Below, in pieces: positions 8,111 to 49,125 of a stretch of 49,387 bases of DNA. The position numbers and the translations under genes are program-made. The DNA lies in NCBI GenBank assembly GCA_021297795.1, contig JAJTGL010000015.1, positions 1 to 49,387 of the forward strand, read 5' to 3'. This stretch comes from Planctomycetaceae bacterium. GTDB lineage: Bacteria; Planctomycetota; Phycisphaerae; Phycisphaerales; SM1A02. The notes under the pieces are model-generated. The model searched no databases. It was given only the letters and a program-made list of their open reading frames with translations, and was not told the DNA's origin. Every line of letters begins with the position of its first letter. Positions within the stretch are counted from its first letter, which is position 1.

Positions 8111-11110
8111 ATGAATGCCGCCGTCCGTTTCCATCGTTGCGCCGCCGTCCGAGTGGCAGTTCTCGCCTCGAATGCCGTGCTCTCGCTCGGGCTCGTGGGC
8201 ATGCTCGGCGCATGCGTGCCGAAGGATGGGCCGTCGGGCTTCGTCTCGGCACCGCAGGATTCCTCGACAACGACGCCCGCGGTGAACGCGACGAATGCCT
8301 CGGGTGGTGCGGGATCGATGCCCATGCAGCCTGCGCCTGCTCCCGACGCGCGTGAGAACTCGTTCCCGCGCGTCTTCACGTCGGGCAGCGACTCAATCAC
8401 GGTGTACCCGCCGAACTTCCAGTCTTGGAACGGGCATCTTCTTTCAGGCACGTGCGCGTTCTCCGTGGCGAAGACCGGCGGACAGTCGCAGGAGTTCGGC
8501 ACGCTCGCGTTCACCGCGAAGACCGAGGTGAACAAACTGAACCGCATTGTCGCGGTGAACGAACTCGAGGTGACCGGCGTGTCGCTCCCGACCGACCCGG
8601 CGGCGCAAGATCGGCTGTCGCGTGAGATCGAGGAGCAGGGGAAGGGGAAGACGCTGCACGTGGCGCTCGACCGTCTCGAGGCCGCGGCGCCCTCGATGAA
8701 CGCGGCACCGAGCGTGGCCGTCGCGCCGCTTCTCAACAATCCACCCGCGCTTTCGATCGTGTCGACGCCCACGGTGCTTGTGCCGATTCAGGGACAGCCG
8801 ACGTTCGCGGGGATTCCCGGTACCGGGCTCCAGCGCGTCCTCAACACGCCGATGCTGCTCGCGCAGGACGGCGCCGGCAACTGGTGGCTCAAGATCGCGG
8901 ACGGTTGGATGACGGCGGGTTCGCTCGCCGGCCCGTGGTCGGTCGGCACGGCGACCGCCGACCTCGCGACGGCGGCCGAGTGGGCGAAGTCGCAGCCTTC
9001 GCTCAACCTCCTCGCGCCGAGCTCGACCGACACGGCGATGCAGTCGAACCAGTCGCAGACCGTGTCGCTTGCGGTTTCGGCGCCGGCGATCGTCGTCTCG
9101 GCCGCGGCCGCCGAGATCCTCGTCACCGAGGGCACGCCCACGTGGGCGGCGATCCCGTCGAGCGGACTCTCGTACATCTCGAACACAAGCGCGAACATCT
9201 TCAGGCTTGACGCAACCGGTGCGTGCTACGTGCTCGTCTCGGGTCGGTGGTTCACCTCGAGCGGGCTTTCGGGGCCGTGGACGTACGTGGCGGCGAACCA
9301 GCTGCCGACGGCGTTCATGATGATCCCGCACGACAGCCCAAAGGAGAACGTGCTCGCATCGATTCCGGGCACCGCGCAGGCACAGGAGGCGGCGATCGCG
9401 AACTCGGTGCCGCAGATGGCGCGCGTGCCGGTGACGCAGGCGCTCGCAACGCCGACGGTGATCGGCTCGAAGCCCGAGTGGACGAAGATCAAGGGAACGA
9501 GTGGTTCCGGTTCGGTCGAGGTGCTCTCGAATTGCGTGACGCCGGTCTTCCGCACCGCATCGAACACGTTCTGGGCGGTCGAGAAGGGCGTGTGGTTCAC
9601 CGCGACCGCGATCGCAGGCCCGTGGAAGGTGGCGTCGTGGGTGGCACCGATCCTCTACACGATCCCGCCGTCGAGCCCGTACTACTACGTGACCTACGTG
9701 CGCATCTACAGCACGACGCCGACGTACGTGGTCGTGGGCTACACGCCCGGATACTTCGGCGCGTACGTGCAGGACGGCGTGGTCGTCTACGGCACGGGCT
9801 ACTGGTACGACCCGTACTGCACCTCGGTGTGGGTGCCGGTGCCGATGACGTACGGTTGCGGCGCATCGATGTGCTACAACCCGTGGGCAGGCTGGGCCTT
9901 CGGCTTCGGCTGCGGCATGGCGGTTGGTTGGGCGATCGGCGCGAGCACGTGGCACTGCGGCCCGTATCCATGCTGGGGTCCGTACTGGGGCGGCTACGGC
10001 CCGCATGGTGCGTATGCGTGGGGTCCCGGCGGCTGGGCTGCGACCACCGGCAACGTGTACCACCAGTGGGGCAACGTCACGACGATGTCACGCACGAGCG
10101 AAGGCTACAACGCGTGGACGGGCAACCAGTGGGCCACGCACACGGGTGCTGCGTACAACTCGGCGACGGGTGCGCGCGCGGCTGGTCAGCGCGGCGTGGT
10201 GCAGAACGCCTACACCGGCAACTGGGCCGCGGGTGCGCGTGGTGCGGGCTACAACCCCGAGACGGGGAACTACGCGTCGGGCCGCGTGGGTGCAGTCGGT
10301 ACGCCGGGCCAGACGGATGCCGTTGCGGGTGCCGCGACGGTCGGCAACACGAAGACGGGGCAGAGCGCGTCGGTTGCGGGCGTGAAGACCGATGACGGCA
10401 CGTGGGGTGTTGCCAAGGGTTCGGACGGGGCAGCGGTGTCGACTGGCAACAACGTCTACGCGACGCATGATGGCAACGTCTACAAGTACAACGACAGCTC
10501 GAGCTCATGGCAGCAGTACGACAAGTCATCGGGTTGGAACGATGTGAACGACGACGCGACGAAGAACTCGCTGAGCCAGCAGGCGGCGACGCGGTCGGAC
10601 GGCGACTGGCGGAGCGCGAACGCGAGCCGCTGGCAGACGGGCGGCGATGGCTTCTCCGATCGCTCGAGTAGTTCCAGCCGTTCGTCGTCGATTCGGGCGC
10701 TCGGGCGGATTCAGCGGCGGATTCCGCGGATTCGGCGGACGTCGGTAGTAGCCGAGCCGTGCAGCCGAACCGTGCCGGGTAGCTCGCGGGTACGAGCGGG
10801 TACAAGTGGGTGCGTACCCGGCACCGCGCGTCATCGCTGTAAGTGCGGGGCGATGCCATGTTTGGAATCACATCTGTCGGTGCCGTGCACCAAGCGGGTG
10901 CGATCAGGTACGAGCGGGTCGCTGGGCGGCACGGTACCGATCCCCGCCGATTACCCCCGTCGAAGGCCGTGCCGGGTAGTTCGCGGGTACGAGCGGGTAC
11001 GAGCGGGTGCGTACCTGGCACCGCGGGTTCTTGCTCGAACCTTCGGGCGCGGCGCGACTTGCGAGCGCCGCCGTCGGTGCCGGGGAGCAAGCGGGTACAA
11101 GCGAGAATGA
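8111..11110 (+). CDS. Trp/Tyr/Gly-rich repeat lipoprotein, C-terminus frameshifted
   Basis: The protein begins with a lipoprotein signal ending in LGAC (cysteine near residue 35), so it is probably anchored in a membrane on the periplasmic or outer face. Three similar modules follow, near residues 215-275, 335-395 and 450-505. Each has 'P.W..I.GTGL..V.NT' followed by 'G.WF.S..L.GPW'. After them comes a Tyr/Trp/Gly/Cys-rich region (about 510-640), then Gly/Asn repeats such as YNAWTGN and YNPETGN. The ATG at 8111 has a GGAGG 7 bases upstream. As read, the frame runs to 11110 through a repeat cluster with arginine-rich nonsense. Skipping one base near 10688 instead gives a Gly/Phe/Arg-rich tail that stops at 10748, the probable native end. 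Function is not known; similar modules occur in planctomycete and proteobacterial envelope proteins. Confidence 0.7.
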   Translation: MNAAVRFHRCAAVRVAVLASNAVLSLGLVGMLGACVPKDGPSGFVSAPQDSSTTTPAVNATNASGGAGSMPMQPAPAPDARENSFPRVFTSGSDSITVYPPNFQSWNGHLLSGTCAFSVAKTGGQSQEFGTLAFTAKTEVNKLNRIVAVNELEVTGVSLPTDPAAQDRLSREIEEQGKGKTLHVALDRLEAAAPSMNAAPSVAVAPLLNNPPALSIVSTPTVLVPIQGQPTFAGIPGTGLQRVLNTPMLLAQDGAGNWWLKIADGWMTAGSLAGPWSVGTATADLATAAEWAKSQPSLNLLAPSSTDTAMQSNQSQTVSLAVSAPAIVVSAAAAEILVTEGTPTWAAIPSSGLSYISNTSANIFRLDATGACYVLVSGRWFTSSGLSGPWTYVAANQLPTAFMMIPHDSPKENVLASIPGTAQAQEAAIANSVPQMARVPVTQALATPTVIGSKPEWTKIKGTSGSGSVEVLSNCVTPVFRTASNTFWAVEKGVWFTATAIAGPWKVASWVAPILYTIPPSSPYYYVTYVRIYSTTPTYVVVGYTPGYFGAYVQDGVVVYGTGYWYDPYCTSVWVPVPMTYGCGASMCYNPWAGWAFGFGCGMAVGWAIGASTWHCGPYPCWGPYWGGYGPHGAYAWGPGGWAATTGNVYHQWGNVTTMSRTSEGYNAWTGNQWATHTGAAYNSATGARAAGQRGVVQNAYTGNWAAGARGAGYNPETGNYASGRVGAVGTPGQTDAVAGAATVGNTKTGQSASVAGVKTDDGTWGVAKGSDGAAVSTGNNVYATHDGNVYKYNDSSSSWQQYDKSSGWNDVNDDATKNSLSQQAATRSDGDWRSANASRWQTGGDGFSDRSSSSSRSSSIRALGRIQRRIPRIRRTSVVAEPCSRTVPGSSRVRAGTSGCVPGTARHRCKCGAMPCLESHLSVPCTKRVRSGTSGSLGGTVPIPADYPRRRPCRVVRGYERVRAGAYLAPRVLARTFGRGATCERRRRCRGASGYKRE

Positions 11111-11129
11111 AGCGGTCGCTGCGCGGCAC
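10772..11129. repeat. Cluster of four 53-bp palindromic elements (A-B-A-B)
   Basis: Four elements of exactly 53 bp, each starting GTGCC and ending GGCAC, lie at 10772-10824, 10880-10932, 10969-11021 and 11077-11129. Elements 1 and 3 are near-identical (type A, with terminal GTGCCGGGTA and TACC(C/T)GGCAC). Elements 2 and 4 resemble each other (type B). The A-to-B gaps are both 55 bases and the gap between the two units is 36 bases. Type A contains a roughly 10-bp internal periodicity of GCGGGTACGA. The cluster fills most of the 414-base gap between the probable end of the lipoprotein gene (10748) and the carotenoid gene (11163). It looks like a REP-type or MITE-type repeat; no transposase is present here. 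Confidence 0.85.
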
Positions 11130-11162
11130 GGTTCGATGAGGTGCCCCGCGCAGGGCGCGCTG

Positions 11163-14467: not shown

Positions 14468-16146
14468 AGCGCACCATCGTCGTCATCGGAGGAGGCCTTG
14501 CCGGCCTCGCGGCAGCCACCGAACTCACCACGCAGATGCGCGGCGAGGCGGAGATCGTGCTCGTCGAGAGGAACCGCCACCTCGGCGGCAAGATGAACGT
14601 CCTCTCCGAGAAGGGCTATCACTTCGACATGGGCCCGACGATCATCACGATGCCCGAGGTCGTGCGCGGCATCATCCGCCGCAGTGGCCGGAAGGTCGAG
14701 GACTACCTCGAGCTCGTGCGGCTCGATCCGCAGTGGCGCTGCTTCTACGAGGACGGCACCGTCCTCGACCTGCGCGACGACCCGAAGGTGTTCGCGGCCG
14801 AACTCGACCGGCAGTTCCCGGCGATGAAGCCGGGCCAGGGCTACCTCGAGTTCCTCTCCTTCGCGCGGCGCATGTACGGCCTCAGCGAGAAGGTCTTCTT
14901 CTACAAGGACCTCGGCGGCGTGCTCGACATGATGAGGAAGCCGCCGCAGGAGCCGGGCGTCCTCGGCGACGCGCTCGCGATGCGCATGTACTCGACCGTG
15001 GCGCGCACATCGCACAGGTCGATCCAGGAGCCGCACCTCGCGCAGCTGACCGAGCACTTCATGCAGTACATCGGTTCGAGCCCGTTCCTCGCGCCCGCGA
15101 TCCTCTCGCTGATCGCGAGCGCGCAGGGCGACTACGGCTGCTGGTACACGATGGGCGGAACGCGCATGGTCGCGCGCAGCCTCGAACGGATCTTCACCGA
15201 GCAGGGCGGGCGCGTCGAGCGCGGCGTCGGCGCGAAGCGAATCATCGTCGACAGCGGACGCACGACGGCGGTCGAACTCGAGGACGGCCGCACCATTCCC
15301 TGCGACGCGGTCATCTCGAACTGCGATGTCCAGCGCACCTACACCGATCTCGTCGGCACGCCCGCGGCGCTCGCCGAGCAGCGCAAGATCGCGGCGAAGT
15401 ACGAGCCCGCGTGCTCGGGTGTCGTCCTCTACCTCGGCCTCGACCGCCGCTACGAGCACCTCCGTCACAACTGCTTCATCTTCTCGGGGAACTCGCAGCA
15501 GGAGTTCGACGACATCTACCGGAAGGGCGACCCTGCGCGCGATCCGACGCTCTACCTGTGCGTGCCGAGCGCGACCGATCCCGCGCAGGCCCCGCCGGGC
15601 GGCGAGTCGCTCTACATCCTCGTCCACACGCCGTACCGACGCGATCGTCACGACTGGGACGCGACCGGCGACGACGCGCTCTTCGCGCGCTACCGCCGCG
15701 TGATCCTCGACAAGCTCAAGCGCTTCGGCATGGAGGACATCGAGGACCACATCGTCGTCGAGCGCCGCCTCACGCCGGCCGCGATCGACCGCATGTACAA
15801 CGCGACCGGTGGCGCCATCTACGGCCTCGCGTCGCATGGCCGGCTGCACGGAGGATTCAAGCCGCGCAACACGAGCCCGGTGGCGAAGGGCCTCTTCCTC
15901 GCGGGTGGCAGCGCGAATCCGGGCCCGGGCACGCCGATGGTGATGATGTCGGGCGTGACCGCCGCGTGGAGCGCGTGCGAATCGCTCGGGAAGTCGCCGG
16001 ATCGGAGCGCCACCGACCTCAAGAACGGTTCGACCGTCGGACGCGAGAAGCCGTTCGAGAGCCTGCTCTCGGGCGAGTTCGACATGCATGCGGGCACGCA
16101 GAGCGGAGCGAAGCCTTGGCGCGAAGCGCTGGCCGCGTCGCACTGA
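14464..16146 (+). CDS. Second CrtN/CrtP-type carotenoid desaturase or oxidase
   Basis: A 560-residue FAD enzyme homologous to the divergent desaturase. It opens with KRTIVVIGGGLAGL (FAD motif, residues 8-13) and GGKMNV, and ends its catalytic part with FLAGGSANPGPGTPMVMMSG, the family's C-terminal FAD motif. In C30 carotenoid clusters a CrtN paralogue, CrtP, oxidises the end methyl group to an aldehyde, which the preceding aldehyde dehydrogenase would convert to the acid. I favour the CrtP role from this context, but desaturase activity is equally possible from sequence alone. Its ATG overlaps the preceding stop (ATGA). A hydrophilic tail of about 50 residues follows the last conserved motif. 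Confidence 0.85.
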   Translation: MKRTIVVIGGGLAGLAAATELTTQMRGEAEIVLVERNRHLGGKMNVLSEKGYHFDMGPTIITMPEVVRGIIRRSGRKVEDYLELVRLDPQWRCFYEDGTVLDLRDDPKVFAAELDRQFPAMKPGQGYLEFLSFARRMYGLSEKVFFYKDLGGVLDMMRKPPQEPGVLGDALAMRMYSTVARTSHRSIQEPHLAQLTEHFMQYIGSSPFLAPAILSLIASAQGDYGCWYTMGGTRMVARSLERIFTEQGGRVERGVGAKRIIVDSGRTTAVELEDGRTIPCDAVISNCDVQRTYTDLVGTPAALAEQRKIAAKYEPACSGVVLYLGLDRRYEHLRHNCFIFSGNSQQEFDDIYRKGDPARDPTLYLCVPSATDPAQAPPGGESLYILVHTPYRRDRHDWDATGDDALFARYRRVILDKLKRFGMEDIEDHIVVERRLTPAAIDRMYNATGGAIYGLASHGRLHGGFKPRNTSPVAKGLFLAGGSANPGPGTPMVMMSGVTAAWSACESLGKSPDRSATDLKNGSTVGREKPFESLLSGEFDMHAGTQSGAKPWREALAASH

Positions 16147-39642: not shown

Positions 39643-42600
39643 ATGCGACCGAGTTCTCTCGCCCACGCCGCACGCATCGTTCCGCCGCTCCGCACGCTCG
39701 CCGTCTGCGCGACGGCGACCGCGCTCGCGCTCGCCGGTTGCAACGGGGATTCGGGTCGCGGCGACGGAACCGGCGACGTGTCGTCGGAGGTCGATCCGGC
39801 GGTGGCGCGCGAACTCAACCGAGCGGTGGGCCTCATGGGGCGCTTCGAGTTCGAGCCGGCGGCCGCCGAGTTCGCCAGGATCGCCGCGCTGCCGGGTGCC
39901 CCGCGCGAGGCCGCACTCGGTCACGCGATCGCCGTGCTGAACCAGTCGCGCGACGGTGCGCAGGACGAGGCGCTCGCGCTGCTCGGCGCGTTCCTCGCGA
40001 CCAATCCGCCGAAGGAACTCGCGCTGCGTGCGCGCTACTGCCAGGGACTGTGCCTTCTCTATCTCGGCAGGCCCGCCGAGGCGCTCGCGGCGTTCCAGCC
40101 GGTGGCCGAGGCGCGCGGCGAGGATGCGTATGCGCTCTACTTCACCGCGCAGGCGCTCGAGCAGATCGGTGATTGCGAGAAGGCGCTCGGCTGGTACGAC
40201 CGCGCGGCCGCGCGCGACGCGCGGCTGAAGAGCGCGCTGCTCGGCGTGCAGCGCTGCGCGCGCAAGCTCGGCGACGAGGCTCGTGCCGAGCGCGCACTTG
40301 ATTCGTTTCAGCAGCTTGCTGAGAATCCGCGCGCGAGGAACGCCGAGTTCAAGTACACGCGCATGGGTTCGCTGGGTCTCGCGCCGCTGCCGAGAACGCT
40401 CGTGCCGTCCGATTGGAAGCCGCCCGCCGGACCCATCTTCGAGGCTGCGCGCGAGCTGTCGATCACGTGGCCCGAGGGTGCGAAGCCGACATGGTCGACC
40501 GACGTCGAGCAGCACGCGGTGGCGGGGGACCTCGATGGCGATGGAAGGCTCGATCTCCTCATCGCGCGCGCGATCGTGGAGCCGGGCGCGACCGATCTCT
40601 CGGCGCTCTTCCTGCGCGGTCGCGCCGATGGCGGTTTCGACGCGGCGCCCGATCATCCGCTCGCATCGCTCGCGGGCGGATCGACCTGGTCGATGCTGCT
40701 CGGCGACGTCGACAACGACGGTCGCACCGACGTGTACGCATGCCGGAGCGGTGGCAACCGTCTGCTGCTTGCGGAAGGTGACGGCGGATTCCGCGACGCG
40801 ACGGCGGAGTGGGAGGCCGCGGGTACGACCACGTCGTGCGGTGACGGCGTGCTCGCCGACCTCGATCACGACGGCGATCTCGACGTCCTCCTGCTGGCGC
40901 GCGACGGTCCGATCGAGCTGCTTGCGAACGTGGGTGGCAAGTTCCGGAACATCGCCCCCGAGGCCGGTTTCCAGCAGGAGGAGCGTGCGTCGATCTCGGC
41001 GTTCGTGGGCGACTTCGACTACGACCGCGATGCGGACATCTTCATCCTGCACGAACTCCCGCCGCACACGCTGATGCTGAACGAGCGGCTCTGGCGCTGG
41101 GGGCCCGGCACGGCGCCCGGCTTCACCGAGGCGCAGCTCGACGAGGCGGGCCGCGCGGCGGCGGTGATCGACATCGCCGATCTGCCGCTGCGGCGGCTGG
41201 CGATCGCGACCGGAAGCTACCTCCGCCTCCCGACGCGCGTCGAGAAGTACCCGCTCGATCCGCGACTCGAGATGGCCGCGTGCGATGCGACCGGCGACGG
41301 TCACACGGATCTTCTTCTCTTCCGTTCGAAGGCGATGCAACTCCTCGACGAAGGCGGGCGTCTCGTCGAGGAGATCTCCTTCGGCGAGGAGATCGTGCGT
41401 GCGCACGCGCTCAACCTCGACGCGGCGCGCGGGCCGTCGGTGGTCGCGCTGCGCGCGGGTAAGGCGCCGCTCATCCTCGCGCCGGGTCCTGGCCGCGGGA
41501 ACTCGATCGCCATGCGCTTCAGCGGTCGCGACGATCCCTCGCAATCGATGCGCTCGAATACAAGCGGACTCGAGTGGTCCGACGGCGTCTTCCAGAGCGA
41601 GGTCGTGGTACCGGCGGGAGTGGTGACGCCGGTCGTCGAGACGCAGCGGCAGATCTCGTCGTGCCCGGTGCTCTTCGCCTGGAACGGCGAACGCATGGAG
41701 TTCGTGACCGACATGCTGGGCGTGGGTGGCCTCGGCTATCTGCTCGAGCCCGACGTCTACAGCGAGCCCCGCCCGCGCGAGACCTTCGTCTTCCCCGAGG
41801 GCGCGCTGGTGCCGCGTGCGGATGGTTCGCTTCGGATCGCGCTTGCCGAACCGATGGAGGAGTCGTGCATGCTCGATCTCGTCGCGCTGCGTGCGATCGA
41901 CCTTCCGGCCGGATGGGACATCGCGCCCGACGAACGGCTTGCGATCGGCGGTGCCGCGCCGACCGGCGACATTGTCGCGTGGCGCCAGTCGTGGCCGGCA
42001 TCGTCGTCGAGCTCCGCGACGACCGAAGCGCTCGCGAAGGTGGATCTCGCCGCGCCCGACGTCGGTACACACGATCCGCGCTTCCTCGGACGCCTCGCGG
42101 GCGAGCAGGTGCTCGAGCTCGAGTTCGCGACCGAGATCGGCGCGATCGCGGACCCGTGGCTCGTGATCGACGGATGGGTCGAGTATCCGTACTGCCAGAC
42201 CATGTTCGCGGCGTGGCAGGCGGGCGCGAAGTACCGGGCACCGAGCCTCGAGGCGCGCGGCGCAGACGGCGCGTGGACGACGCTGGTCGAGGAGTGGGGC
42301 TATCCCGCAGGCATGCCGCGTCGGATGGCGCTGCCGATTCCGCGCGAGAAACTGCCTGCGGGTGCGACCGCGCTACGGATGCGCACGAACATGGAGATCT
42401 ACTTCGACAGCGTGCGCCTGGTGGCGCGCGAGCCACTCCCCGTGGCGTCGGTCGACCTCGCTTTGGCGCGCGCGGATCTTGCGTCGGTTGGCTTCGCACG
42501 GCGCACGACCGGGGCTCAGAAGCAACCGCACTACGACGATGGCAACCGGTTGCCGGATCCACGCGCCGCTACGTGCTTGAGTTGCGCGGCTGGTGCAAGG

Positions 42601-42666
42601 ACATGGACCTCTTCACGAAGGACGGCGAGACGATCGAGCCACTGCCGGGTGCGAAGCCCGCCGTGA
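39643..42666 (+). CDS. TPR/FG-GAP (CRTAC1-like) lipoprotein, C-terminus frameshifted
   Basis: A lipoprotein signal ends in LAGC (cysteine near residue 29). Residues about 50-230 are TPR-like helical repeats. From about 280 on there are FG-GAP calcium-loop repeats (DLDGDGRLDLLI, DVDNDGRTDVYA, DLDHDGDLDVLL, DFDYDRDADIFI), and a large C-terminal beta domain (about 660-960) of CRTAC1/ASPIC type. As read, the frame ends at 42666 in arginine-rich nonsense. From about 42549 another frame gives a sensible tail (RRYVLELRGWCKDMDLFTKDG) that stops at 42704, 20 bases before the cytochrome gene. From memory of related proteins, about 50 residues may also be missing at the junction. The ATG at 39643 follows a TATCCT hexamer. 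It probably forms a pair with the cytochrome on the periplasmic side; its function is unknown. Confidence 0.78.
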   Translation: MRPSSLAHAARIVPPLRTLAVCATATALALAGCNGDSGRGDGTGDVSSEVDPAVARELNRAVGLMGRFEFEPAAAEFARIAALPGAPREAALGHAIAVLNQSRDGAQDEALALLGAFLATNPPKELALRARYCQGLCLLYLGRPAEALAAFQPVAEARGEDAYALYFTAQALEQIGDCEKALGWYDRAAARDARLKSALLGVQRCARKLGDEARAERALDSFQQLAENPRARNAEFKYTRMGSLGLAPLPRTLVPSDWKPPAGPIFEAARELSITWPEGAKPTWSTDVEQHAVAGDLDGDGRLDLLIARAIVEPGATDLSALFLRGRADGGFDAAPDHPLASLAGGSTWSMLLGDVDNDGRTDVYACRSGGNRLLLAEGDGGFRDATAEWEAAGTTTSCGDGVLADLDHDGDLDVLLLARDGPIELLANVGGKFRNIAPEAGFQQEERASISAFVGDFDYDRDADIFILHELPPHTLMLNERLWRWGPGTAPGFTEAQLDEAGRAAAVIDIADLPLRRLAIATGSYLRLPTRVEKYPLDPRLEMAACDATGDGHTDLLLFRSKAMQLLDEGGRLVEEISFGEEIVRAHALNLDAARGPSVVALRAGKAPLILAPGPGRGNSIAMRFSGRDDPSQSMRSNTSGLEWSDGVFQSEVVVPAGVVTPVVETQRQISSCPVLFAWNGERMEFVTDMLGVGGLGYLLEPDVYSEPRPRETFVFPEGALVPRADGSLRIALAEPMEESCMLDLVALRAIDLPAGWDIAPDERLAIGGAAPTGDIVAWRQSWPASSSSSATTEALAKVDLAAPDVGTHDPRFLGRLAGEQVLELEFATEIGAIADPWLVIDGWVEYPYCQTMFAAWQAGAKYRAPSLEARGADGAWTTLVEEWGYPAGMPRRMALPIPREKLPAGATALRMRTNMEIYFDSVRLVAREPLPVASVDLALARADLASVGFARRTTGAQKQPHYDDGNRLPDPRAATCLSCAAGARTWTSSRRTARRSSHCRVRSPP

Positions 42667-42712
42667 TGGAGAAACTGCGCACGAGGCCGATGGGCGGGCG
42701 GTAGGCAGCCGA

Positions 42713-42724
42713 TACAGTGCGCCG
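42713..42724 (+). promoter_or_regulatory. Leaderless-type -10 (TACAGT) before the cytochrome gene
   Basis: TACAGT (42713-42718) ends 6 bases before the ATG at 42725, in the short gap behind the native stop (42704) of the preceding gene. Confidence 0.5.
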
Positions 42725-45640
42725 ATGTCGAAGTTCCGTCCGGCCGTCGGTCCGAAGTTGAAGTGGCTGTTGGCCACGGTCTTCGGGCTGTTCGCGTTGC
42801 TGGCGGTGAACAGCGTGTACCTCAGTTCGGTGACGTTCCTGCAGTGGAAGACGGGCGAGACGCTTGAGAACCGTTTCTACCTCGCGAACTTCCTCGCGCA
42901 CCTCGTGCTTGGTTTTGCCATCGTGGTACCGACGATCGTGTTCGGTGCGCTGCACTGGCGCAACGTCGGCAGTCGGCCGAATCCGCGCGCGATCACCGCC
43001 GGGATCGCGACGTTTGTCTCGGCGATCGTGCTGCTCGCGACCGGTGTCGCGCTGACGCGCGTGGAACTCGGTGGCGTGACGATCGGCGTCCGTGAGCCGA
43101 CGACCCGTGAGATCGTCTACTGGGCGCACGTGATCGCGCCGTTCATCGCGGCATGGCTCTTCGTGCTGCACCGACTGTCAGGCCGGCGCATCAAGTGGGC
43201 GGTGGGTGTGCGCTGGGCCGCGGTTGCCGCGGTGGTTGCCGTCGCGGCGACGCTGCTCCACGTGGTCGTGCCCGCGGCGGCGCCGCGCGTTCCAGAGGAC
43301 GGTGCGCGCTACTTCGAGCCGTCGCTTGCGAAGACATCGACCGGCGGGTTCATCCCCGCGAAGGGCCTGATGGCGAACGAGTACTGCCTTGAGTGCCACG
43401 CCGACGTTGTCCACTCGTGGGCGCACTCGGTACACGCGGCAAGTTCGTTCAACAATCCGTTCTACGCGGCAAGCGTGCGCGAGACGCGCGCGGAGGCTTT
43501 CAAGAAGGATGGCCATGTGCAGGACGCGCGCTTCTGCGCGGGCTGTCACGATCCGGTGCCGTTCTTCGCCGGCGCCTTCGAGGAGTCGAAGTGGGACGAC
43601 CCCGCGTACGACGTGGCGAACGACCCGCTCGGCCGTGCGAGTATTACCTGCACGGTCTGTCACGGCATCGTGTCGATCGACAGCCCGCGCGGCAACGCCG
43701 ACTACACGATTCAAGAGAGTCCGCACTATCCGTTCGCCTTCAGCGAATCGGAGACGCTGCAGTGGATCTCGAACCAGTTGGTGAAGGCGAAGCCGTCGTT
43801 CCACAAGCGCACGTTCTTGAAGCCTGAGGTGCATCGCTCGAACGAGTTCTGCAGTACCTGCCATAAGGTGTTCCTGCCCGAGCCGCTGAACGACTACAAG
43901 TGGCTGCGCGGACAGGATCACTACGGTTCGTTCCTCGCCTCGGGGCGCAGCGGACACGGTGCGCTCGGTTGGTACTACCCGGAGAAGGCCGCGACATCGT
44001 GCAACACGTGCCATATGCAGGCCGTGCCGAGCGAGGATTTCGCCGCGCGCGACCGCGACGGAAGCGGCGTGCGCAGCGTGCTGTCGCACGCGTTCCCAAG
44101 CGCGAACACCGCGCTCTCGGCTGCGGTCGATCAGTCGGCTTGCGCGATGCTGCCCGAGATGGCGTGCGAGGAGCTTCCGGACGGGATGGCGGGCGAAAGC
44201 GCGGCCGACGCGCACAAGGCGATCGTCGCCGGTCATGCGGCCTTCAACGCGAAGACTGTGCGCGTGGATCTCTTCGCAGTGCGTGAGGGTGGCGCGATTG
44301 ACGGCGCCTTGCGCGTGATCGGGGCCGAACTCCCGGTGCTCGACGCGGGCGGACGGTACTTGATTGAGGTCGTCGTGCGGACGCTCGACATCGGGCACGA
44401 GTTCACGCAGGGCACCGCCGACTCGAACGAGGTCTGGCTTTGGACGCGTGCGACGCTCGACGATGCGGGCAAGCCCGGCAAACTCGTCGGGATCAGCGGC
44501 GGCATCGACGAGTCGACGGGCGAACTCGATCCATGGTCGCGCAAGTACAACGCGTTTGTGATCGATCGCGACGGGAACCGCATCGACCGACGCAATCCGC
44601 AGGACATCTTCCTGCCGCTCTACAACAACCAGATCCCGCCGGGCGCGGGCGACGTGACGCACTTCGTGCTGTCGGTGCCCGAGGACGCGGGCGCGCCCAT
44701 TCGGCTCGAGAGCGAGGTCCGCTACCGCAAGTTCGACACGACGTACCTTCGCTATGTGTTCGGCGAGAAGCGCGTGAACGATCTTCCCGTGATGGTGATC
44801 GCGCGCGATGAAGTCGTGCTGCCCGTGCGCGGGAAGGATGGGCGCGTGCATGGTGCGGCGGCGGGGGCTGCAGACGCGGTGCCCGAGCTGCAGCGCTGGT
44901 ACGACTATGGCATCGGGCTCTTCCGCGAGAGCGATCGCGGCGCCGGTCGCGGCGCCCTCCGCCAGGCCGACGAAGCGTTCGCGCGCGTCGCCGAGCTCGA
45001 TCCGGCGATCGGCGCGCTGGCGCGGGCACGGCTCGCGGTGCGCGAGGGCCGACTCGACGACGCGTCGGCGGCGCTTGCGCGTGCAGCGGAGGCCGGTTCC
45101 AAGTCGCCGTGGACGCTTGCGTACTTCACGGCGCTCGTCGACAAGCAGAACGGCAATTTTGCGAAGGCCGCGGAGGGTTTCCGCCGCGTGCTGGCGACCG
45201 ACTTCGCAGGTGCGCGCGAGCGCGGGTTCGACTTCTCGATCGATGTGCGTGTCCTGAACGAGCTGTCCGAGTCGCTGCTCGAGGCGGCGCTTGCAGTGCG
45301 CAATGAGGAAGTTCGAACCAGGCTTGCTCGCGAAGCACAACAGGCTGCTAGACAGTCGCTCGATGTGGATCCTGAGCAGGCCCAGACATGGTGGTTCGTG
45401 AACCGGGCGTGCGAGATGCTCGGCGACGCGGAGAGTGCGCAGGCGGCGCGCGACCAGCACGCGCGGTACAAGCCGGATGAGAATGCGCGCGACCGTGCGG
45501 TGCGACTTGCGCGGGAGAAGTATCCGTGGGCCGACGCAGCGGCGGAGGCGACGGTGCTCTACTCGCTGATGCGCGAGGGGGCGCCCGTGGGCGATCTTCT
45601 GCCCGGGACGCGCGTCGAGGTGCCGGGACTGCGCCGCTAG
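42725..45640 (+). CDS. Membrane multihaem cytochrome c with TPR domain
   Basis: A 971-residue protein. Residues 1-180 hold five membrane helices carrying His59, His77, His135 and His149; the last two are spaced HX13H, as in b-haem-binding helices. Residues about 215-430 are periplasmic with five c-haem motifs (CLECH, CAGCH, CTVCH, CSTCH, CNTCH). A segment like HAASSFNNPFY after the first motif resembles cytochrome c554-type proteins. A beta domain follows (about 500-700), then TPR-like helices (about 720-960). It could pass electrons from the quinone pool to periplasmic haems. The partner is unknown, and the upstream FG-GAP lipoprotein is the best guess. The ATG at 42725 follows a TACAGT hexamer. 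The b-haem idea rests only on histidine spacing. Confidence 0.88.
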   Translation: MSKFRPAVGPKLKWLLATVFGLFALLAVNSVYLSSVTFLQWKTGETLENRFYLANFLAHLVLGFAIVVPTIVFGALHWRNVGSRPNPRAITAGIATFVSAIVLLATGVALTRVELGGVTIGVREPTTREIVYWAHVIAPFIAAWLFVLHRLSGRRIKWAVGVRWAAVAAVVAVAATLLHVVVPAAAPRVPEDGARYFEPSLAKTSTGGFIPAKGLMANEYCLECHADVVHSWAHSVHAASSFNNPFYAASVRETRAEAFKKDGHVQDARFCAGCHDPVPFFAGAFEESKWDDPAYDVANDPLGRASITCTVCHGIVSIDSPRGNADYTIQESPHYPFAFSESETLQWISNQLVKAKPSFHKRTFLKPEVHRSNEFCSTCHKVFLPEPLNDYKWLRGQDHYGSFLASGRSGHGALGWYYPEKAATSCNTCHMQAVPSEDFAARDRDGSGVRSVLSHAFPSANTALSAAVDQSACAMLPEMACEELPDGMAGESAADAHKAIVAGHAAFNAKTVRVDLFAVREGGAIDGALRVIGAELPVLDAGGRYLIEVVVRTLDIGHEFTQGTADSNEVWLWTRATLDDAGKPGKLVGISGGIDESTGELDPWSRKYNAFVIDRDGNRIDRRNPQDIFLPLYNNQIPPGAGDVTHFVLSVPEDAGAPIRLESEVRYRKFDTTYLRYVFGEKRVNDLPVMVIARDEVVLPVRGKDGRVHGAAAGAADAVPELQRWYDYGIGLFRESDRGAGRGALRQADEAFARVAELDPAIGALARARLAVREGRLDDASAALARAAEAGSKSPWTLAYFTALVDKQNGNFAKAAEGFRRVLATDFAGARERGFDFSIDVRVLNELSESLLEAALAVRNEEVRTRLAREAQQAARQSLDVDPEQAQTWWFVNRACEMLGDAESAQAARDQHARYKPDENARDRAVRLAREKYPWADAAAEATVLYSLMREGAPVGDLLPGTRVEVPGLRR

Positions 45641-45649
45641 TGCCAGACG

Positions 45650-45853
45650 GTGCCAGACGGTGCACGGCACGTGCCGCCCAGTGCCTGGCACAAGACGGCA
45701 CGTGCCAGGCACCTCGGTCCGCCGCGCGCGAACGAGCCAGAGCGCGTTGCGGATGGCTCCTCTCGTTCGCGTCTGGAGAGGTTCGGCACGGTGCACGGCA
45801 CGTGCCATGCGGTGCCTGGCACCGACTGGCACGTGCCGTGCACCGTCTGGCAC
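45650..45853. repeat. 204-bp element with 26-bp perfect terminal inverted repeats
   Basis: Positions 45650-45675 and 45828-45853 are exact reverse complements over 26 bases, starting GTGCCAGACGGTGCACGG. Inside are two 53-bp palindromes, 45660-45712 and 45791-45843. The second has perfect 16-bp arms around a 13-bp palindrome GGTGCCTGGCACC (45811-45823). An extra GTGCCAGACG copy (45640-45649) overlaps the cytochrome stop codon. The GTGC...GCAC ends and 53-bp size match the four elements at 10772-11129, so all six are one family. The element fills most of the gap before the AAA ATPase gene. A REP/MITE-type origin is inferred. Confidence 0.88.
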
Positions 45854-45906: not shown

Positions 45907-47353
45907 ATGTCTCCCGCCGATGCCGCCTGCCCGCCGATCCGCACCCTCGCCGAACTCCGCGCCTCCGGCTGGCGCTCGCGCCCCGTGAAGGACGAACTCC
46001 GCGCAAACCTCGTCGCGGCACTCTCCGCGCCGGGCGCCACGCCCCGCGAGCTCTTCCCCGGCATCCTCGGCTACGACGACACGGTGCTCCCCGAAGTGGT
46101 CAACGCAATCCTCGCCGGCCATGACATGCTCTTCCTCGGCGAAAAGGGCCAAGGCAAGAGCCGCCTCATGCGGCTCCTGCCGCGGTTCCTCGACGCGTGG
46201 ATCCCGTACCTCGATATCCCCGCCTGCGCCGTCCACGAGGACCCCGAGCGCCCGATCACGCGCGCGGGTCGTGAACTCCTCGCCTCCACCCCGCCCGAGA
46301 AGATCGGCATCGCGTGGTGGCACCGGTCCGATCGCTACGCCGAGCGCCTCGCGCCCGGCACCAAGTTCGCCGATGTGATCGGCGAGATCGACCCCGCGCG
46401 CCTCATGTCGGGTACCTCGATGTCGGCCGAGGAGGCGCTCCACTTCGGCCTCATCCCGCGGCAGCACCGCGGCATCTTCGCGATGAACGAGCTCCCCGAC
46501 CTCGACGAGCTCGTGCAGGTCGGGCTCTTCAACATCCTCGAGGAGCGCGACGTCCAGATCCGCGGCTACCCGGTGCGCTTCGACCTCGACATCCTCGTCC
46601 TCTTCAGTGCGAATCCGAGCACGTACAACCGCTCGGGCAAGGTGATCCCGCAGCTCAAGGACCGGATCGGCAGCACGATCGTCACGCACTACCCGCGCGA
46701 GCGCGAGCTCGGCATCGCGATCACGCGGCAGGAGGCGGGCATCGATCTCGGCGGCGACCATCCGGTGCTCGTGCCGCCCTTCATGGACGAGATGCGAGGA
46801 GATCTCGCGCGTCGCGCGGAAGTCGCGATACGTCGACCAGGCGAGCGGCGTCTCCGCGCGCTTCGCGACGGCCAACTGGCGCACGATGGTCGCGAACGCC
46901 CGCCGTCGCGGGATCGCCCTCGGCGAGCGGCCCGCGGTGCCACGGATCAGCGACCTCGCCCACATCCACGCAAGCGCGGTCGGCAAGCTCGAGCTCGACC
47001 TCATGGGCTCGCATCAGATGACCGAGCGACAGGCGATCGACGCGATCGTCGCCGAGGCGGTCGCGAACGTCTTCAACGAATACGTCGATGCGCACGGGCT
47101 TGGCGAGATCGCCGACGTCTTCGCGAAGGGCGTGCGCATCGAGGTCGGCGACATGCTGCCGTCGTCTGCTTACGCCACCGCGATGCGCGAGGTGCCCGCG
47201 GCATGGACGAAGGCGTTCGAGGTGAATCCATCGGAAAATGCCGCCGTGCGTGCCAGTTGCGTCGAGTTCGTGCTCGCCGGACTCTGGGCGACCGAGCGCG
47301 TGTCGCGCACCGAGAAGCATGGGCGCGTCTCCTACGAGGTGCGCGGGCTTTGA
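45907..47353 (+). CDS. Mg-chelatase/MoxR-like AAA+ ATPase, one frame break
   Basis: An AAA+ ATPase of about 480 residues. Walker A is GEKGQGKS (near residue 79); the central part has [12 protein letters not shown] and the [17 protein letters not shown] segment typical of Mg-chelatase-like helix-2-insert ATPases. The first frame is sound up to LVPPFMDEM at 46794 and then turns arginine-rich. Moving forward one base gives a normal continuation ([15 protein letters not shown], then [25 protein letters not shown]) to a stop at 47351-47353. One surplus base (or two missing) near 46795 explains this. The stop overlaps the TTG start of the VWA gene. AAA-VWA pairs remodel or insert metals into proteins; the client here is unknown. 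The ATG at 45907 is used. Confidence 0.78.
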
Positions 47354-49125
47354 GCGAAGGCGACGCGCCAACCCCGCGCGAAGGTGACGGTGAGGCCACC
47401 GGCGAGCCCTCCGGCAACCACCCCGGGATCCCCGTGGTGCCGCCGCCGCCGCTCGGTGGCGTGATCCACACGTACCTCGCCTACGACCCGCAGGAGTTTC
47501 CGCCGCCGACGCGACCGCCCTCGGGCGATGCGGCCGATGCGCTATACGACCACATGCTGATGTACGGCTCGCGCCGCCGCTTCACCGAGCGTGAGCTCGC
47601 CGACGCGATCCGGCTCGATCCGTCGCAGGTGCGCGGCCTCGGCCCGAGCCTCGAGGCGCTGCGCGCGATGCTCGAGGAGCGCCGACGCCGCATCCTCGAG
47701 AAGCACGAGACCACGCGTGCCGAGCAGCGTGCCGCCGAGGCGTACGAAGACGCCGCCCGCAAGGTCGAGGTGCCCGACGCGATCGCGCCGCGGCTGACGC
47801 CCGCGCTCGCGGCGGGGCAGCTGGCCGAGCTCGAGAAGATCCACCGTCGCGTGCCCGACGCTTCACCGCTCGCGCGCTCGCTCATGCAGGCGATCGCGCG
47901 GCTGCGCGACCGGTTCCAGGTCGACGAGCTCGCCTCGCGCCATCGCTTCACCGGACGCACCGAGATGACCGTCGCGGAGGCGCTTGCCGTCAAGGGCGAA
48001 CTCGACCGGATCGAGCGGCTGCTCAAGCAGATCGAGGAGGCGCTGAAGAACGCGAAGCCCGCGATCATCGACATGTCGGCGCTCCGCGAGTTCGCGAGCG
48101 AGGAACAGCTCGCCGACCTCGACCGCGTGCAGCGTCAGGTGAACGAGCTCCTGCGGAAGATGGCCGAGGAAGCGGGGCTCGAGCGAAGTCCGGAGGGCTA
48201 CCGCTCGTCGCCACGCGCGTTGCGCACCTACCAGAAGCGCCTGCTCTCGACGATCTTCGCCGAACTCGCCGATGCGCGTCGCGGCCGCCACGACGGTGTC
48301 CTCTCGCGCGACGGCGCGATCGAACTCCCGGCGACGCGTCCGTACGAGTTCGGCGATTCACCCGCCAACCTCGACGTCCCGCAGTCGATCCTGAACGCCG
48401 TCGCGCGCTCGGGGCAGGGGCGTCCCACGGCCGAAGACCTTGTCGTTCACCGCACGCGCCGCACGCCGAAGTGCGCGACCGCGCTCATCCTCGACATGTC
48501 GGGCTCGATGCGCTACGGCGGTCAGTACATCGCGTGCAAGAAGATGGCGCTCGCGCTCGACGGGCTCATCCGCACCGAGTACCCCGGCGACTTCCTGCAG
48601 GCGATCGAGATGTACACGCTCGCGAAGCTGCGTCCGGCGGGCGAGATCGTCGAGATGCTGCCGAAGCCGGTGTCGATCAACGATCCCGTCGTGCGCCTGC
48701 GGGCCGACATGTCCGATCCCGAGATCGGGGAACTCGACCTGCCGCTGCACTTCACGAACATCCAGCGTGCGCTCGCGCTCGCGCGCCAGGTGCTTTCGTC
48801 GCAGGACACGCCGAACCGACAGATCTTCCTCCTCACCGACGGGCTCCCCACGGCGCACTTCGAGGGCAGCGACCTCTTCATGCTCTACCCTCCCGACCCG
48901 CGCACCGAGGCCGAGACCATGCGCGAGGCCGAGCGTTGCCGTCGCGAGGGGATCGTGATCAACATCTTCCTGCTGCCGAGCTGGTCGCAGACGGAGGACG
49001 ACGTCCAGTTCGCGCACCGGATGGCCGAACGTACGGGCGGTCGCGTCCTCTTCGCGGGCGGCGAGGAACTCGACCGCTTCGTGGTCTGGGACTACGTCAG
49101 GATGCGCCGCACGATCATCGGCTGA
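47350..49125 (+). CDS. VWA (MIDAS) domain protein, partner of the AAA+ ATPase
   Basis: A 591-residue protein. A Pro-rich N-tail precedes two helical, charged regions (about residues 55-330, with coiled-coil-like [18 protein letters not shown]). A von Willebrand A domain follows (about 375-570), with the MIDAS motif DMSGS near residue 383 and later TNIQ and LTDGLP metal ligands. AAA+ and VWA partners act together in Mg-chelatase, RavA-ViaA and CbbQO systems. I chose the TTG at 47350 because it overlaps the AAA stop (TTGA), as neighbouring genes do. Without correcting the frame break upstream, the frame is open from 45907 and would give a 1072-residue fusion whose middle (46795-47350) is arginine-rich nonsense; I regard two proteins as correct. 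Confidence 0.82.

Follow-up and report, generated by a model that had tools for sequence, protein, structure and literature searches.

A dispersed family of paired 53-bp palindromes in a genus of Planctomycetota, probably spread by a RAYT transposase

Introduction

In this article, I will discuss how a stretch of intergenic DNA comes to begin and end with the same letters in opposite sense, what may have carried it there, and whether anything in it is being maintained. The question is raised by a 49,387-nucleotide piece of DNA (the window) from a Planctomycetaceae bacterium, contig JAJTGL010000015.1 of assembly GCA_021297795.1, which belongs to a draft genome of 3.2 Mb in 147 contigs, 83% complete, that I will call G000. 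A preliminary description made from the letters alone had offered a non-autonomous mobile element as one possibility, and this is probably right, for copies lie on many contigs, the same palindromic unit stands on both sides of a transposase gene, and relatives lack the element at several sites. The answer that I will argue for is that the window element is most probably a RAYT-linked non-autonomous repeat, one that a Y1 (HUH) transposase of the RAYT/TnpAREP kind, resident in the same genome, recognizes and has spread.

The element and its neighborhood

The element follows the gene of a multihaem c-type cytochrome-like protein (42593-45640, plus strand, as the open reading frame was listed, with a true start that may be internal), whose NCBIfam and Pfam matches are weak and below the curated cut-offs. 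Its 26-bp ends, 45650-45675 and 45828-45853, are exact inverted copies in which every letter agrees, as first described, and the two 53-bp palindromes reported at its ends are also confirmed. Unit 1 (45660-45712) is a near-palindrome with 42 of its 53 positions self-complementary, and a spacer of 78 bp (45713-45790) separates it from unit 2 (45791-45843), in which 48 of 53 positions are self-complementary and perfect 16-bp arms surround GGTGCCTGGCACC (45811-45823), a sequence with 35 exact copies in the genome, where its reversed pattern has none. No second copy of the spacer was found in its own genome. The outer tails, read from the sequence on the plus strand, are two tandem 10-bp copies of GTGCCAGACG (45640-45659) on the left and CGTCTGGCAC (45844-45853) on the right; the first GTGCCAGACG starts at 45640, where the stop codon of the cytochrome gene (TAG, 45638-45640) ends, and the contact with that codon noted earlier needs a small correction, since the extra 10-bp tail extends the element to overlap the last base of the stop. 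By a narrow pattern, a 10-bp outer tail is present on at least one side in 44 of 254 collected units.

Downstream, the gene of an AAA ATPase (MoxR/Mg-chelatase-like; start of the gene 45907-46800, plus strand) comes after a short leader that contains TGACTCCC and TGCGAAGATG-like blocks, which recur in several relatives. The long ATPase reading frame, 45907-49125, is in frame at both ends and apparently out of frame mid-way, where the likely frame is that of the ORF 46886-47353; the two frame changes are perhaps draft errors.

Chance can be excluded as the source of this structure by the excess of its motifs in the window (GTGCCTGGCAC three times vs 0.01 expected, GGCACGTGCC four times vs 0.13) and by its single-strand fold, with z-scores of -8.8 as DNA and -9.9 as RNA and not one equally stable sequence among 200 shuffles in either case. 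Such a fold (-147.9 kcal/mol as RNA) is also what one would look for in an element working at the RNA level, its transcribed hairpins ending or stabilizing the mRNA of the upstream gene, and the family's sites do adjoin gene 3' ends, with none of the 20 that were classified lying between divergent genes (a crude GC-by-codon-position heuristic applied to 26 sites, of which four fell inside an ORF that is perhaps spurious and two at contig ends). I nevertheless consider this improbable, since a terminator-like T tract was looked for and not found, the spacers carry no RNA structure, no Rfam family scores above its gathering score (the sub-threshold matches are to microRNA hairpin models only), and the link to a transposase described below would be left unexplained.

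A family dispersed through a genus

Counting the element itself, 97 pieces of G000 match it, and the family is spread over many of the contigs. Searching for the unit with a 41-base pattern and up to three mismatches recovered 55 units in G000 and between 5 and 73 per genome in 11 of the 16 genomes of the genus, none in the other five, and none in any of the 16 when the pattern was reversed as a control. The pattern totals 361 units in these 11 genomes, and 254 were collected from fetched stretches with fixed-length models, which leave units with insertions or deletions uncounted and make the figure of 53 bp partly one of construction. In a DNA search of 61 genomes with the element, 12 matched, namely G000, ten congeners and, weakly, one member of another genus. 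Copies on many contigs and units in 11 of 16 genomes rule out a purely local structure.

The supposed kinship with a cluster 35 kb away has to be divided: short GTGCC/GGCAC pieces are indeed common to both, and a single family is ruled out. The cluster (10740-11150 of the window) belongs to a separate, longer, GTGCC/GGCAC-rich family (GTGCCGGGTAG ... GTACCCGGCAC) with 37 genome matches including itself, none of them on C50, the contig that bears the transposase gene, and three of the 35 exact GGTGCCTGGCACC sites (C12, C21 and C38) lie within about 50 bases of its matches.

A transposase between two units

The preliminary description recommended a search for a transposase tied to the ends of the element, and a Y1 gene with the same unit on both sides was found in G000 and six more genomes (G003, G004, G006, G010, G012 and G014). 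The one Y1_Tnp (IS200-like/RAYT) gene found in G000, within the limits of an 83% complete draft, lies on C50 between units at 14601-14653 and 15431-15483, 830 bp apart, while in G002 and at the second gene of G012 a unit is present on one side and a contig end is near on the other. The survey of Y1 genes comprises 28 entries, the genes of G000 and of G012 contig C117 having been read separately from the main flank listing. The HUH (NH[VI]H) and Y (Y[IM]ERNP) motifs are retained in all 11 aligned RAYTs; two RAYTs score 51.6 and 62 bits with NCBIfam REP_Tyr_transpos, below its cut-off of 80, and Pfam Y1_Tnp, at 36.2 bits against a cut-off of 23, is the sole Pfam match in the one RAYT scanned.

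The type of unit tells the same story as the type of transposase. Units of the GAGGTGCC type make up 20 of 29 in G003, 2 of 12 in G006 and 9 of 43 in G012 (31 of 84 together), and among the 170 units from the remaining eight genomes of the sample there are none (254 collected in all); a clade-B RAYT (support 0.96) is held by exactly these three genomes. G012 holds a clade-A RAYT as well, with the other unit type beside it. Unit type therefore tracks RAYT clade, as would be expected if the transposase recognizes the unit, and both a Y1 HUH gene flanked by the same repeat and a repeat type that matches the transposase clade count among the defining features of a RAYT/TnpAREP system in the broad sense, of which processing of the single-stranded repeat by the transposase would be a third.

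Because a unit-bordered RAYT is impossible in a genome that has no units, I compared the kind of RAYT across genomes, and the kind of about 205 residues occurs in 9 of 11 unit-bearing genomes (G008 and G011 being the exceptions) vs one of five unit-less ones (G007). Some observations count against spread by the RAYT: no unit-bordered RAYT was found in the unit-bearing G005, G008 and G011 (drafts of 82-96% completeness); RAYTs with no unit in the stretch seen occur in G005, G006 (where the contig begins at the gene), G007, G010 and G014; and the G000 RAYT reads as frameshifted, its N-terminal motif and the remainder lying in different frames (L077 2482-3560, on C50), which makes it either a pseudogene or the product of a sequencing or draft error. 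Separately, the Y1 gene on contig C375 of G014 (L175) has no unit-like repeat alongside.

Vacant, occupied and scarred sites

The RAYT of G000 lies between two convergent genes, which from their translations we take to encode an epimerase-like protein and adenosylhomocysteinase. This site is occupied in five genomes (G000, G002, G010, G012, G014); it bears no trace of the gene in G001, G004, G013 and G015, where there is just a short gap that contains a GC-rich inverted repeat, judged by eye; and it is scarred in G011, by a 19-base remnant GGTGCACGGCACGTGCACC that a second G002 contig also carries, the comparison covering these ten of the 16 genomes. G002, a metagenome-assembled genome, thus shows the occupied and the scarred site on two contigs (C266, L120, and C103, L152), as if from a mixed population.

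The non-autonomous copies present a similar mixture. At site A (C140:1740-1905), units are found in G000, G010 and G014 and none in G002, with other DNA and a decayed unit in G011 and no unit in the part of G004 that was read; at site B (C140:11013-11260), G000 and G004 have units, G012 has only GTGCC-type fragments, and G002, G005, G010, G011 and G014 have none; at site C (C140:20139-20304), units in G000, G002, G005 and G012 stand beside a deletion scar in G011, and G004 has none. At sites D, E and F (C64), the relatives with both flanks alignable (three, five and three, respectively) all lack a unit. The window's own site has a pair in G010, one unit at a contig end in G005, half a unit in G002 and G011, a decayed unit in G003 and none in G007.

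The empty sites that the preliminary description suggested seeking in relatives are therefore there, with the RAYT site vacant in four genomes and scarred in a fifth and the non-autonomous sites also unit-less in relatives, while the target-site duplications that it suggested seeking with them are not evident at any vacant or scarred site read. Such duplications are not expected of a Y1/HUH transposase. The vacant non-autonomous sites are not polarized by a species tree, so loss explains some of them. Between G002 and G011, two genomes with 89-99% identity over aligned stretches longer than 400 bases, the unit losses read have the appearance of deletions from one short repeat to another within the palindrome. 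From this mix of vacant, scarred and shared sites it follows that the family turns over and yet is long-lived.

From the dispersal, the units on both sides of the transposase, the match of unit type to clade, the vacant and scarred sites and the preferred spacing described below, I infer that the transposase moved the family's copies, by single-strand processing. On this model, which for the first step leans on RAYT biochemistry in the literature, the 53-bp nested palindrome would be the recognized object, presented as a hairpin in single-stranded DNA; most elements would consist of two units a set distance apart, separated by a spacer that diverges quickly; the likely autonomous form would be the transposase gene between two units; and copies would be inherited in place for long periods, keeping units and spacing recognizable, until lost by deletion inside the palindromes.

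Pair geometry

The 97 pairs of units collected (a set that includes G002/G011 orthologues and one tandem cluster in G012, both of which were stripped of duplicates for the spacer analyses below, while one inter-element distance of 227 bp was left out of the spacing analysis) do not support the earlier proposal that terminal inverted repeats organize the family, as the two units agree better in direct orientation in 82 pairs, in inverted orientation in 11, and tie in four, although a later set of five complete pairs gave one direct and four inverted. The window copy is itself a tie, its two units being 42/53 alike in either sense, and with its 26-bp ends it satisfies the 15-30 bp terminal inverted repeats of a MITE, which is not the rule in the family. 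A REPIN-like inverted arrangement as the rule is likewise ruled out in the main 97 pairs, with four of the five later ones contrary. The four-base symmetry-breaking loops give the same direction, with 59 agreements in the direct sense vs 24.3 in permutations and seven vs 13.7 in the inverted outer sense. By arm type, the two outer arms agree in 71 cases vs 58.3 expected and the inner arms less than expected, and since the outer arms match, the two units seem to act together as a single element; pairing within a unit was rejected as the main covariation, for agreement in arm type is weak inside a unit and strongest between the outer arms and between corresponding arms of unit 1 and unit 2.

The distance between units is also far from free. 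It is 107-111 in 57 of 97 pairs, and in G002 and G011 all 12 pairs are spaced 109, while 7 of 13 pairs in G004 are spaced 141-143. The pairs of G000 fall at 108-110 (16), 130-132 (four), 151-153 (three), 169 (one), 175 (one) and 217 (two), a ladder with a period of 21.6 (R 0.94) and hence a step of about 22 bp, and G004 has one of about 11 bp (R 0.90); a general ladder of +22 bp was rejected, as pooling the remaining genomes (16 spacings, P 0.83) did not reveal one. Copies within a genome have units that are 85-95% alike on average, but their spacers do not align: above the score line were only 2 of the 351 spacer pairs from G000 and none of the 78 from G004. The fast-changing sequence that was first suggested is accordingly a property of the spacer alone and not of the palindromes.

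Mostly direct repeats, unique spacers and near-constant length might bring to mind a minimal CRISPR-like or attC-like array of repeat, spacer and repeat, an idea that I regard as almost certainly wrong: there are mostly just two repeats, the pairs are dispersed over many contigs, where a CRISPR would be a multi-repeat array at one locus, and a search of the genus for the spacer of the window element gave no good second match, the sole one being 38 bases at 84% in G008. The clearest array, at G012 C31:17300-18500 (L308), is one local tandem duplication with a period of 108 bp, which repeats the spacer along with the units.

A hidden core in the spacer

What the spacers have in common was first spotted by eye in the sequences and then tested on those same spacers: across 51 spacers belonging to the 107-111 class, positions around 17-19 are enriched in A and those around 38-40 in T. 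Defined as AA-N18..20-TT centered within 1.5 bases of the spacer midpoint, this core, found in many spacers of 55-57 bp, is present in 31 of 54 (shuffles, mean 0.67 and maximum 5), in 6 of 35 longer spacers (mean 0.23, maximum 2), in none of five under 52 bases, and in none of 112 flanking windows taken as a control; a small held-out set of pairs has it in two of six (mean 0.06, maximum 2). By genome, the counts are 9/15 in G000, 6/7 in G002, 4/5 in G011, 5/5 in G005, 3/3 in G010, 1/1 in G006, 1/3 in G014, 0/2 in G003 and a weak 2/13 in G012, and the window's own 78-base spacer has no centered core. Three of 11 longer spacers in G000 carry it, still at the midpoint, which means that length was added equally on both sides and would explain the 22-bp steps.

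An RNA hairpin in the spacer was rejected, as the bases beside the core show no clear base-pair covariation and the mean z of the spacer's RNA fold is -0.02; a core that is hardly a hairpin suggests instead a dyad site in double-stranded DNA. One could therefore propose that pair and core form a site of fixed geometry, bound on one face of the helix by the RAYT or a host protein and kept by selection, that is, domesticated, for chromosome organization or the separation of transcription units. The preferred spacings, the ladders, the centered core and its lack of hairpin character all speak for this, as do sites where several species carry units, and also three orthologous G002/G011 pairs whose spacers are 100, 79 and 66% identical and always 56 bases without a gap, their units being 92-100% identical. 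It has to contend with a ladder confined to two genomes, a core that is weak in G012 and missing from the five short spacers and from the window copy, a binder that is only putative, and five genomes of the genus in which no units were found, and I hold it to be a possibility worth keeping, short of an even chance. Still more tentatively, and on balance doubtful, a RAYT repeat may have become a domesticated nucleoprotein site, with palindromes on one helix face around a dyad core (~CGNAA-N19-TTNCG), selection acting on distance and core and not on other spacer bases, and the 22-bp ladder representing one helical turn added on either side of the core. A bound complex, of the transposase or of a host protein, may be what the geometry now serves, which is a good further step but about as conjectural as these two proposals.

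Spacers that are mostly unrelated within a genome while the units stay alike, together with a weak symmetric core, would also be consistent with a captured target, in which a complex preferring AA/TT some ten bases either side of the target center would have set units, two at a time, about native DNA, so that the spacer is host DNA. Two vacant sites have no room for such a spacer (site A in G002 and site C, with its deletion scar, in G011). At site C, the core is exactly centered in G002, G005 and G012 (the G000 spacer lacks it), although their spacers align no better than shuffles, as from a later constraint; I would call this origin distinctly improbable. Simple copying of the whole element, on the other hand, does not predict spacers that fail to align, which is a difficulty for the preferred reading of spread by the RAYT.

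Relation to known repeat systems

The nearest relative appears to be the TIRYT/TIRtron system, for which the portion of Di Nocera et al. (2013; PMC3733652) consulted describes a RAYT-related Y1 gene between long, sometimes self-complementary repeats that are also dispersed in the genome, often as dimers. A RAYT-like gene, long self-complementary flanking repeats, and dispersal with dimers are all found here too; the GGGGWSAS motif given there for some members occurs in 0 of 254 units, and, as far as that portion goes, the nested 53-bp palindromes, mostly direct twins, preferred spacing and hidden spacer core set the present family apart. A TIRYT protein would be one of subclass 2.1 with a C-terminal HTH, and Y1_Tnp is the single Pfam match of the one RAYT scanned here. 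Among more distant RAYT relatives (L180-L218; Omnitrophota, Aminicenantes, Acidobacteriota and others), inverted repeats containing GGGAC, close to the motif named in the same portion of that paper, lie on both sides of the gene in 22 of 28 examined (of 66 fetched), a count made without a null model, and one of them, L204 from Saganbacteria, has nested palindromes reminiscent of the 53-bp units.

Parts of the work on REPs and REPINs (Bertels and Rainey, 2011, PMC3116915; Corneloup, 2021, PMC8266576) describe RAYTs associated and co-evolving with repeats, and extragenic REP doublets with a preferred spacing, 110 bp for one class (PMC3116915), so that RAYT association, extragenic doublets at a preferred distance and a match of repeat to transposase are shared with the family here. 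On the same partial accounts, REPINs are inverted doublets of short tagged hairpins, whereas the present units are untagged, mostly direct and, at 53 bp, longer than the 20-40 bp of a canonical REP with its GTAG/GGAG or CGTC foot tag: over 508 unit sides, GTAG was found 0 times, GTGG five, GGAG ten and CGTC eight. Neither do they form the inverted REP doublet of a REPIN or BIME, by the orientation counts given above.

Finally, part of Quentin (2018; PMC6006769) places class 3 and subclass 2.6 Y1 genes next to "atypical secondary structures" repeated in the genome, class 3 being found mainly in Planctomycetes, Acidobacteria and Proteobacteria, and Y1 genes beside unusual, genome-repeated structures are equally what is seen here. 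Compared by the descriptions in that part, the Y motif of the present family, YIERNP, is unlike those given for these classes (Y....Q; YIH[QN]NP), and a CnGA foot is a mark of class 3. Among the papers listed by a search of the open-licence PMC literature, none was seen to describe this repeat or direct-oriented RAYT doublets with a constant spacer, and two features look new, namely a spacer that does not align between copies yet is near-constant in length, and the AA/TT core that it often hides.

Discussion

How RAYTs and their repeats persist for long periods without being lost or overrunning the genome is an open question. This genus offers a contrast with which to approach it, since units are present in 11 genomes and were not found in five of the 16, and one genome, G012, holds two transposases with different unit types. 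Whichever model of movement or function is preferred, it must explain a geometry that can be measured, both the spacing and the hidden core, and the family supplies a concrete substrate and a prediction for tests in vitro.
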